From Clostridia bacterium (GTDB taxonomy: Bacteria > Bacillota > Clostridia > RGIG6154): 64,000 nt of DNA. Below, in pieces: positions 1 through 62,044 of this stretch. The DNA lies in contig JAFQRW010000005.1 of NCBI GenBank assembly GCA_017409875.1, positions 1 through 64,000 on the forward strand, in the 5' to 3' direction. The first letter of the stretch is position 1. The number at the start of each line of letters is the position of its first letter. Both the position numbers and the translations under genes were made by a program. The notes beneath the pieces are model-generated. The model saw only the letters and a list, made by a program, of their open reading frames with translations. It made no database searches and was not told the DNA's origin.

Positions 1-47
1 GTGTCCCGAACGAAGCGCGCTACCAAACTGCGCTACATCCCGATATA
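1..47 (-). repeat. tRNA-Pro(CGG) 5'-half fragment, copy 1
   Basis: Read on the minus strand this is an acceptor-like strand CGGGATG, a D-arm (GCGC, loop with TTGGTA, GCGC), then CTTCG and an anticodon loop TTCGGGA with anticodon CGG. That is the 5' half of a tRNA-Pro. The window edge cuts it just after the anticodon loop, where the bases already read CAC, not the expected CGAAG. A near-identical copy lies at 201-247. It could be part of a real tRNA gene running off the window, but the shared break point with copy 2 argues for a derived fragment. Confidence 0.55.
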
Positions 48-86
48 AAATATTCGATTTTTTCTATCTCCCGTGTCTGTGGGATA

Positions 87-132
87 ACATGTGGTCAAAA
101 CTTGTTTGACCACATGTATTTTGTTTTTTAAG
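87..132 (+). terminator. Strong hairpin with T-rich tail
   Basis: A perfect 13-bp inverted repeat (87-99 with 105-117, loop ACTTG) is followed by ATTTTGTTTTTT. This is a good intrinsic terminator for rightward transcription entering from beyond the left edge. It sits between the two tRNA-Pro half copies and may be part of the same repeated unit. Confidence 0.6.
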
Positions 133-200
133 TCGCCATAAAGTGGCGGTGTTAAAAGGTTTGTGGGAGTTCGGCGGATTACTAATGAATTGGTTAGTAT

Positions 201-247
201 CGTGTCCCGAACGAAGCGCGCTACCAAACTGCGCTAATTCCCGAAAT
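201..247 (-). repeat. tRNA-Pro(CGG) 5'-half fragment, copy 2
   Basis: The first 36 plus-strand bases match copy 1 exactly, while the acceptor part differs (CGGGAAT on the minus strand). Past the anticodon loop the minus strand reads CACGATACTAACC, with no anticodon 3' strand, T-arm or matching 3' acceptor in the next 100 bases, so this is not a functional tRNA gene. The rest of 1-355 holds no convincing gene; open frames crossing it simply read through the repeats. Confidence 0.65.
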
Positions 248-355: not shown

Positions 356-565
356 TCATTTACAGTCTGTTACTTTGTATCCTGCTTCTTCTACAGCATT
401 TTTCAGATAATCACAAGAAACATCTGAGTTTAATTCAACAACTGCGGTTTTAGTCTGGTGATTTGGCTGTGCAGAAACAACTTCAGGAAGTAGCTCTAAA
501 CACTTTTTAACATTTGCCTCGCAATGAGGGCACATCATTCCCTCGATAGTTAATGTTTTTATCAT
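356..565 (-). CDS. copZ: Possible separately translated CopZ-like copper chaperone (in-frame internal start in copA)
   Basis: Met747 of CopA (ATG at 563-565) is preceded by a perfect AAGGAGG (574-580, complement) at 8 nt spacing, inside the coding sequence. Translation from here would yield a 69-residue protein with GMMCPHC at its N-terminus, the size and layout of free CopZ chaperones. The simplest history is an ancestral copA-copZ pair that lost the copA stop codon while keeping the copZ ribosome site. Whether both products are made cannot be read from sequence. Confidence 0.5.
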
Positions 566-2803
566 ATTTTTTGCCTCCTTGTTTTTATCGAATACTTTTA
601 TAAAGTTTAATCTAAGTGCGTTTGTAACAACACAAAAGCTTGACAGGCTCATTGCAGCTGCACCTATCATAGGATTGAGTTTAAGACCAAATGAAAGAAT
701 AAACACACCTGCTGCAAGCGGTATACCTATTATGTTATAAATAAATGCCCAGAACAAGTTTTGATGTATATTTTTTAAAGTTTTGCGGCTTAATTTAATG
801 GCGGCAGGTACATTTTCAAGATTTCCGCTCATTAATACAATATCAGCAGAGTTGATAGCAATATCAGTGCCTGTGCCGATAGCAACGCCTACATCGGCTT
901 GGGTTAAAGCGGGGGAGTCGTTAATTCCGTCTCCTACCATCATAACTTTAGCACTTTTTTGCAAATTTTTTATAGCCATTGCTTTTCCGTCGGGCAATAC
1001 TCCGGCAATAATATGGTCTATGCCTGCGCTTTTTGCAATAGCTGATGCAGTTTTTTCGTTGTCGCCTGTCAGCATAACAACGCTTAATCCCATTTGCTTA
1101 AGTTTTTTTATCGCAGATTTGCTGTCTTTCTTGATAGTGTCTGCTACTGCGATAATACCAATACATTTATCACCAAAGCAAAAGAATATCGGTGTTTTGC
1201 CTTCCTCGGATAGAATTTCTGCGTTTGCAACAAGTTTTTCGGGAATATCGGTAAAACTACCTGCAAAGGCTAAATTTCCGCCATACACAAAATTTTCGCC
1301 AATTTTACCGCTTAAACCGCTGCCAGGAACATCAGAAAAGTTTTCAATAGAAAAAAGTTGCATTTTTTTTGATTTTGCCTCTTTTACTATTGCATAGCTT
1401 AAAGGGTGCTTACTATTGTTTTCAAGAGAATATGCTAATGTTAATAATTCATCTTCAGAACATTCATAAGGGATAATATCGGTAACACAAGGACTACCAT
1501 TTGTTATAGTGCCTGTTTTATCGAGTACAACGGTAGAAATCTTTCCTGCATATTCAAGACTTGCAGCGTTTTTAAAAAGAATTCCGTTTTTAGCGCCCAC
1601 ACCGCTTCCAACCATAATGGCAACAGGTGTAGCAAGACCTAATGCACAAGGACAGCTAATTACCAAAACTGCAATACCTCTTGTAAGTGAAAATCCAAAC
1701 GAATGTCCTGAAAGTAACCAGCAAATAATAGTTAAAGCGGAAATTAAAATGACAACAGGAACAAAAATTCCTGATACTGTGTCTGCAACTTTTGCAACAG
1801 GGGCTTTTGTACTTGAAGCATCGCTGACCATTTTTATTATCTGAGCTAAAAATGTGTCCTGACCGACTTTTTTGGTTTTAACCTTTATAAAGCCCGACCT
1901 GTTTACAGTTGCGGCAGAGACATTACTTCCGGGACGTTTGTCAACAGGAATACTTTCGCCTGTGAGCATAGATTCGTCTACAGCGCTGGTGCCTTCTATA
2001 ACTTCTCCGTCTGCAGGTATACTTTCTCCGGGACGAACAACAAAAATATCTCCAATATTTAGATTTTTCACTGGAATAACAATTTCTTTATCGTCTTTTA
2101 TAATAACAGCCGTTTGAGGTGCAAGCTTAATCAGAGAATTTATAGCATTTGTCGTTTTTCCTTTGGAATATGCTTCAAGCATTTTTCCTACGGTAATTAA
2201 GACTAAAATCATAGCTGCTGATTCAAAGTAAAGCTCATGCATAAGCTCGGGCATATCGTGGTGATTAGCTTTTGTCATTATAAAAAGCATAACAGAACTG
2301 TAAATAAACGAAGCACCCGAGCCAAGAGCAACCAAGGTGTCCATATTTGGAGATTTGTTAAAAAAACCTTTGAAACCATTTATAAAAAATCTTTGATTTA
2401 TAACAAGTATAATGCCTGATAAAATAAGCTGCAAAATGGCTAAAGCAATATGATTGTTTTCAAAAAAGGAGGGCAGGGGAAAGCCCCACATTATATTGCC
2501 CATTGTAATATACATAAGAATAATCAAAAAAACAACAGATAAAATCAGCCTTGCTTTAAGGGAAGAAAAATCTTTATTTTCGGAGTTTTCATTCTTAGGG
2601 TCTGAATTTTTTTTATATGCACCATAACCTGCGTGAGTAACGGCAGCGATAATTTCATCTTGGGTAGCCGTGCCTTCAACAGACATTGTATTAGTTAAAA
2701 GATTAACACTGCATGTATCAACATTATAAAGAGCAGATACAGCTTTTTCAACACGGCTACTACATGCTGCACAGCTCATTCCGGTGATTGTATATTGCTC
2801 CAT
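356..2803 (-). CDS. copA: Cu(I)-translocating P-type ATPase with C-terminal copper-chaperone domain
   Basis: Membrane ATPase of the P1B-1 family that exports monovalent copper from the cytoplasm. An N-terminal heavy-metal-associated (HMA) domain carries CxxC at residues 11-14. The membrane metal site CPC is at 384-386 (motif [11 protein letters not shown]), and the phosphorylated Asp428 lies in DKTGT. TGES, HP and GDGIND motifs are also present. After the last membrane helices a second HMA domain follows (about 747-815, CPHC at 758-761). At 815 aa it is longer than a one-HMA CopA by this extra domain. The ribosome site is GGAGG. It is monocistronic, flanked by terminators, with no CsoR or CopY gene beside it. 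The C-terminal domain has its own ribosome site (see 356-565). Confidence 0.96.
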
Positions 2804-61790: not shown

Positions 61791-61794
61791 ATTT

Positions 61795-62044
61795 TAAGAT
61801 TGTGAAGATGTGTAAGTAGTATCGTTTACTGCAAAAGAGAGCAGGTGTCATTGGGCTGTAAACACTTGTTGCAAAGAAACGATGTGAATTTCAGCATTGG
61901 AGTCTCTTGCGAAAGCTTTTTGGTATAAGCAAGGTGTTGTTGCCTCACACAATAGGCAGTTTAAGTGCAGAAAAGATTTGTTTTCTGAATTTGGGTGGTA
62001 CCGCGGGTAATATGCTCGTCCCTTTTGGGACGGGCATTTTTTTT
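61795..62044 (+). promoter_or_regulatory. T-box riboswitch of pheST (specifier UUC, Phe)
   Basis: Stem I has AAGTAGT on the 5' side and GTGAATTTCA on the 3' side, placing the specifier TTC at 61890-61892, which matches the PheS gene behind it. The T-box GGTGGTACCGCGGG lies at about 61994-62007. The terminator ATGCTCGTCCC (62012-62022) with GGGACGGGCAT (62027-62037) ends in eight T. Confidence 0.95.

Follow-up and report, generated by a model that had tools for sequence, protein, structure and literature searches.

The first 247 bases of the window, by which we mean the whole 64,000-nucleotide stretch of Clostridia DNA that was analysed, very probably form the left attachment side of one integrative element, and probably of two in tandem, in a tRNA-Pro(CGG) gene; this grading applies jointly to the whole explanation. 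The genome to which the window belongs is assembled as 1.46 Mb in 23 contigs; the first base of the window is also the first of contig C4. The contig physically stops there, so that the first of the two repeat copies described below (copy 1) is truncated by its edge.

The region contains two direct copies of a tRNA-Pro(CGG) 5' half, bases 1-46 and 202-247, which are 93% identical and offset by 201 nt from start to start (Table 1). A preliminary description of this DNA had reported the two copies, their different acceptor strands and a hairpin between them, and all three are borne out: on the minus strand the acceptor strands read CGGGATG in copy 1 (bases 42-36) and CGGGAAT in copy 2 (bases 243-237), and the hairpin has 13 perfect pairs and a loop of 5, with T-rich DNA after it on the plus strand. 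The 36 shared bases given there come to 35 when the exact common stretch is counted in the sequence. ARAGORN detected no tRNA in the window, in keeping with the claim that no 3' half follows copy 2. The sole Rfam match in the window was a distant T-box leader (RF00230, positions 61793-62026, 105.3 bits), which bears no relation to the tRNA halves, and there was no match at bases 1-247. Upstream of copy 2 lies a minus-strand ORF of 815 aa (window 356-2803), which we take to resemble a P-type ATPase of the copper type that has metal-binding domains at both ends.

Table 1. Features at the start of contig C4, with the observation on which each assignment rests
Feature	Position	Strand	Observation
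Copy 2: 5' half of the host tRNA-Pro(CGG) gene, broken off past the anticodon loop	204..243	-	40-base identity to the intact tRNA-Pro(CGG) of G003 (same family)
Core CGTTCGGGAC, junction of host 5' half and L	204..213	-	identical core at each of the 17 L copies; also in R fused to 3' halves
L: left end of the putative integrative element, 161 bp, ACGATACT to element-borne 5' half	43..203	-	recurs in other genomes
Hairpin, an inverted pair of TTTGACCACATGT	87..117		87-99 minus, 105-117 plus
Copy 1 (T5): element-borne tRNA-Pro(CGG) 5' half	3..42	-	same position holds a whole tRNA-Pro in relatives
Second core (3-12), then AC (2-1) at the contig edge	1..12	-	T5/L uncut in G061 (L194) and L081

An intron in the tRNA was ruled out, as the 5' half recurs rather than continues. 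A search of the genome itself, which had been suggested as a check for a repeat family with many copies, found the 5' half at these two places only (28-base pattern, at most three mismatches), and a multi-copy repeat within this genome was also ruled out, the unit lying at one locus.

On contig C12 of the same genome, a tRNA-Pro(CGG) 3' half with no 5' half is preceded by a conserved right end, R, which ends in the core CGTTCGGGAC and shares an identical stretch of 24 bases with L. Fused to R with the shared core, this half shows that a tRNA gene was cut in two at its anticodon loop; beyond the 3' half, C12 runs on into chromosomal-looking DNA. The acceptor strand of the C12 half (CATCCCG) makes 5 of 7 pairs with copy 2 and 7 of 7 with copy 1, and no 3' half of the ATTCCCG type was found in the genome by a pattern allowing three mismatches. 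Because of this mispairing and the missing ATTCCCG-type half, a plain single insertion is insufficient; the element-type 3' half on C12 would fit a history in which the element's gene had become the working gene. Rfam finds 41 tRNAs in this genome, and the sole proline tRNA among the 21 loci typed by ARAGORN is TGG. Further along C12 (L115:5167-16459), downstream of a tRNA cluster, are a 2798-aa ORF and neighbours that presumably resemble prophage structural and lysis genes.

The unit of 5' half and L is not a chance arrangement, as it recurs in other genomes. A pattern scan for L covering an 84,980-species collection returned 17 L copies in 16 loci, all from MAGs titled Clostridia, Oscillospiraceae or Ruminococcus, with a ruminant gut sample named in 11 of the 16 titles. 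Every one of the 17 copies starts directly behind the core. The sequence before L is a host-type 5' half in 14 copies, an element-type 5' half in two and R in one, and the sequence after it is a tRNA with a 3' half in six, another L in one and a contig end in ten. Of 391 genomes sampled from the class, 11 match L over 65 bp or more, across six families (a looser count of 16 adds G303 at 53 bp and four short motif matches), and R matches occur in 23, of which 13 reach at least 70 bp. The sharing of L by six families whose adjoining 5' halves vary looks like horizontal spread. Viral contigs held no exact match to the L pattern, and phage and plasmid records gave no L match by blastn at E 1e-5. 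The dispersed repeat that the preliminary description had considered therefore holds between genomes and fails within this one. Judged by sequence, L is the left end of an integrative-element family of gut Clostridia.

The relatives show what lies beyond the edge of C4. In G047, a 5' half, L and an intact tRNA-Pro(CGG) follow one another uncut, at 93% identity over window bases 3-244, and the uninterrupted tRNA-Pro of G003, from the window's own family, has a 5' half identical to copy 2. A whole tRNA-Pro, 5' half then 3' half, stands just inside L in G047, G064, G065, G068, RUG11189 and G302; we refer to it as the rescue tRNA. Five of the six distinct T5/3' half sequences are complete tRNA-Pro genes with 7 of 7 acceptor pairs. 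L076 of RUG11189 departs from the rule, set out below, that the target tRNA is not rebuilt at a junction: there an element 5' half is joined to a host 3' half, with 5 of 7 acceptor pairs, in the order R/L-5' half/host 3' half. At L186, R is fused to an element-type 3' half, beyond which lies element cargo.

To count junctions, we used text patterns for TTCGGGA cores over loci up to L189, tallying distinct sequences rather than genomes and leaving aside TGG-type junctions, odd cores and the 5' half/L of G061. The census gave 18 junctions of 5' half with L, seven of R with 3' half, six of T5 with 3' half, two of T5 with L, one of R with L and one of T5 with a contig edge, which is the window, together with 17 intact genes, one of which (L131/L172, G303) has element-like DNA after it and is perhaps not an empty site. 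Host halves stay orphaned at the 18 distinct left and seven distinct right junctions; the target tRNA gene is not rebuilt. Seven genomes have both a 5' half/L junction and an orphaned 3' half, and in six of them the acceptor and anticodon stems of the separated halves pair, the exception being the window's own genome. The pairing is telling in G002, G022, RUG11189 and G302 (the last with one wobble), because their host acceptors are unlike the element's. G130 and G233 add little, since the host half of G130 equals the element acceptor and that of G233 pairs with an element-type 3' half.

Two right-hand loci have further remnants of tRNA 3' ends. Behind the R/3' half junction of L181 (positions 1-600; G130:C15), repeats at 203-bp spacing, each comprising the last bases of the tRNA 3' end and a terminator-like stem, make up a mirror-image 3'-end repeat. 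In L176 (7100-9900; G377:C114), a 3'-end remnant stands behind an intact tRNA-Pro and, 2.6 kb further along, there is an R truncated before the core; a near-identical AAGTTAYACATTTGTGTGACTTG stretch at the two ends gives the impression that the element now occupies the tRNA terminator.

Tandem units were found uncut in two other assemblies. A single contig of G061 reads 5' half/L/T5/L, with two L variants that differ, the second resembling the window's L, and L081 has the same tandem order with other L variants. Both contigs stop inside the second L; the window's contig stops at its start. Bases 1-12 are probably the start of a second L, an assignment that in the window rests on two bases (2-1), whose minus-strand AC matches the start of L; the C12 3' half starts with GA instead. 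Could the whole arrangement be an assembly artefact or a strain mixture at a contig end? We consider this quite improbable. Copy 1 does touch the contig edge, the 5' and 3' acceptors of this genome mismatch, and the ten of 17 L copies that reach a contig end indicate that such places assemble badly. Against an artefact, the order is repeated in independent assemblies, including the one-contig tandems, whose L copies are different variants and so argue against duplication by the assembler, and it is seen once inside a 1.2-Mb contig (described below).

Rescue tRNAs in the window's family mostly keep the host core, so that a rescue tRNA can be a landing site itself. Those of L071 (2884-2960) and L126 have an altered core (CTTCGGGAG) with the anticodon stem kept, and the altered core could protect them from insertion.

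The tandems and the R/L-5' half/host 3' half order of L076 would also suit a small self-moving repeat, made of L and a 5' half, to which the larger element is merely a helper. We hold this to be unlikely: identical products arise when whole elements insert and the body between cores is then lost, and the junction census shows no unit standing alone in a gene that is otherwise intact.

The body of the element is best seen in relatives. In G065, the host 5' half, L and an intact tRNA-Pro are followed by cargo and then by tandem genes, Int2 (475 aa) and Int1 (414 aa), facing the tRNA. G064 has the Int2/Int1 pair as well, with Int1 cut by the contig start, and Int2 is cut by contig ends in G047 and G302. 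Int1 and Int2 of the relatives, whose genes overlap, belong to the phage-integrase family (PF00589, PHROG 1). The window's own assembly holds no close Int2 relative (best match 32% identity) and, by a whole-genome pattern search for the 5' half, no rescue-tRNA junction. An intact tRNA-Pro together with an integrase, which the preliminary description had named as the sign of an attachment scar, is thus found in relatives and is missing from this assembly. Its proposal of a scar from an integrase cutting at the anticodon loop is supported by the separated 3' half, the conserved ends, the tandem recombinase genes of relatives and the intact tRNA-Pro elsewhere. It had also called a 5' half odd as a remnant; the cause is not the one supposed: neither half of the host gene is restored, and a complete tRNA-Pro is carried instead by relatives.

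In L the 13-mer TTTGACCACATGT occurs as the inverted pair, and in R as a single copy. An extra copy follows the element tRNA in two of five scanned loci (L113 and L080; not L114, L075 or L082). Invariant columns of L lie mostly in the hairpin-bearing half, with strict conservation around GACCACA motifs; L is too conserved for covariation, and we make no claim on it. The hairpin is a probable inverted pair of arm-type integrase sites, in a layout of motifs flanking a core, and this is likelier than a terminator. The terminator-like role proposed earlier was rejected as the main one, because the 13-mer recurs singly in R. A tRNA-derived regulatory RNA with a terminator hairpin is scarcely credible. 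The 250 nt of the minus strand do fold better than shuffled sequences (z -4.23) and the hairpin is terminator-like on the plus strand; but Rfam has no match in the region of L and the 5' half, L adjoins varied 5' halves and element genes, and its conservation around the GACCACA motifs is that of protein-DNA sites.

Nearly all relatives are fragmented MAGs, and outside G296 left and right ends never share one contig. A divergent R, at 73% identity, pointed to this genome, where a 37.7-kb element lies at a tRNA-Pro(TGG) within one 1.2-Mb contig. On its left side are the host 5' half, a spacer of about 160 bp with GACCACA motifs, a whole tRNA-Pro(TGG), Int2 and Int1 (58% and 57% identical to those of G065), and the rest comprises a MobL relaxase, an Ssp-like set, R and the host 3' half. 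The host halves pair, with one wobble in the acceptor. The rescue tRNA is unlike the host tRNA, including the core's last base, and as it differs at the core it offers no obvious landing site. With two integrases and MobL, the element has the integrase and relaxase of its own by which an IME is recognised; this assignment is read on the relative, the window's own element being known from its assembled ends. Among the 21 ORFs of at least 140 aa, 19 were scanned with Pfam and/or PADLOC and matched no phage structural family; some members of the family may nevertheless be phages. Divergent R ends adjoin tRNA-Pro(TGG) 3' halves in L178, L179, L184 and L177, which indicates that the superfamily uses both proline isoacceptors; L177, L178 and L184, in which a pattern search found no tRNA-Pro 5' half, are one-sided.

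Ssp-like matches in G296 are to SspA, SspB, SspF, SspG, SspH/DndH and BrxP, and more weakly to SspC. Such phosphorothioation-type (Ssp/Dnd-like) defence cargo is seen in L190 and L179 (G296:C12, about 787,850-825,534). A second, two-gene cargo is met repeatedly: a protein like RNA-dependent RNA polymerases, with a DxDGD motif, and a partner gene, in L173:13-1521 (G338:C13) and L190:16386-17735 (G296:C12). The two polymerase-like proteins are 49% identical, and match PF05183 at E 4.8e-8 in L173 and at 5.7e-4, short of the cut-off, in L190. Beside R on C12 of the window's genome (L115:3-629) is a partner gene 85% identical to that in L173.

The window's layout might be read instead as an ordinary tRNA island of the rarer type that leaves a 5' fragment, with copy 1 as the rebuilt tRNA, its 3' half past the contig edge, and copy 2 as the displaced fragment. 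Such fragments are known from 159 of 3,919 mapped islands (PMC4383910, in the part drawn on here), and G047, with its 5' half and then a whole tRNA, could by itself be so read. We nevertheless judge this improbable, because the orphaned 3' half sits behind R, on other contigs, because the two bases past copy 1 are AC and not GA, and because in G296 the host halves stand apart on one contig with a different whole tRNA in between.

For insertion into a tRNA gene that is not rebuilt, the reading we prefer, the junctions, complementary separated halves in relatives, rescue tRNAs, recombinase genes, two tandems and one complete relative can be read directly. A tyrosine recombinase system would join the circular element to the anticodon loop through the 10-bp core, leaving host 5' half/L on one side and R/host 3' half on the other and destroying the host gene. 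The whole tRNA-Pro just inside L would then take over from the host gene; the element presumably brings this spare tRNA so that the bacterium survives. A second element landing in the rescue tRNA, or an exchange between cores, would produce 5' half/L/5' half/L. We infer that Int1 and Int2 are the catalysts, that the arm sites function as such, that the rescue tRNA is expressed and needed, and that a second insertion took place in the window's genome.

If the tRNA is needed, an element that destroys the host tRNA gene yet supplies a replacement should be hard to lose, and the rescue tRNA may serve the next element as a landing site. Programs that look for islands by way of a rebuilt tRNA may misinterpret such elements, and where a tRNA-Pro(CGG) seems to be absent from a draft genome, the cause can be a break in the assembly at an array of this kind.

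A more speculative idea, which we think possible though doubtful, is that the 201-bp unit of L and 5' half is a separable, gene-free cassette, bounded by cores and stacking in tandem, that is swapped among element, host tRNA and right end, each insertion remaking the tRNA from modular 5' and 3' parts; this would be an integron-like, tRNA-coupled array of the cargo islands of gut Clostridia. Integron cassette arrays consist of stackable modules, each bounded by one recombination core, and core-bounded stackable modules are what the two have in common. No attC-type motif was seen by eye, and the element integrases, at 50.7 and 36.8 bits, stay well short of the integron-integrase model's cut-off of 265.

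Classical tDNA islands, in the portion of the Islander account used here (PMC4383910), share with the present elements tyrosine integrases, anticodon-loop sites, tandem islands and cargo. Their attP carries part of the tRNA, and the gene is rebuilt on integration, with a 3' fragment left by 3,760 of 3,919 islands; here, in contrast, a 10-bp core is used and the two host halves are left orphaned. Archaeal pTN3-like integrases (PMC8371274, as far as the sections used go) also involve a 5' half. There the tRNA is expressed from an element-side promoter after integration and the original gene is restored, whereas here the element's whole tRNA would replace the original gene. Tycheposons, as described in the part of their account used (PMC10872708), likewise combine cargo islands, a border tRNA and a tyrosine recombinase, a likeness of description that carries no claim of common descent.

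A search of the literature, largely within open rather than subscription titles, showed no description of such a family in Clostridia among the entries listed. The closest system is tRNA-dependent lysogeny in actinobacteriophages (Guerrero-Bustamante and Hatfull 2024, PMC10865867), which, in the sections drawn on, has the same short core, a tRNA that is not rebuilt and an own tRNA of the same isotype. An integrase on the element is found in our relatives, and an attB within a tRNA gene with a short core, here of 10 bp, and without rebuilding is found as well; the rescue tRNA may be needed here for integrants to be viable. Unlike them, the present elements are mobilizable islands of Clostridia with a relaxase in the complete relative and two tandem integrases, and their rescue tRNA adjoins the left end, usually has the same core and takes tandem insertions. 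The accounts compared, in the sections used, make no mention of tandem insertion in a rescue tRNA or of paired integrases, and in PMC10865867, in the part used, the authors left the occurrence of the system beyond actinobacteriophages open. The principle thus appears to resemble published tRNA-dependent lysogeny, here on mobilizable elements, and would extend tRNA-dependent integration from actinobacteriophages to cargo and defence islands of uncultured gut Clostridia.
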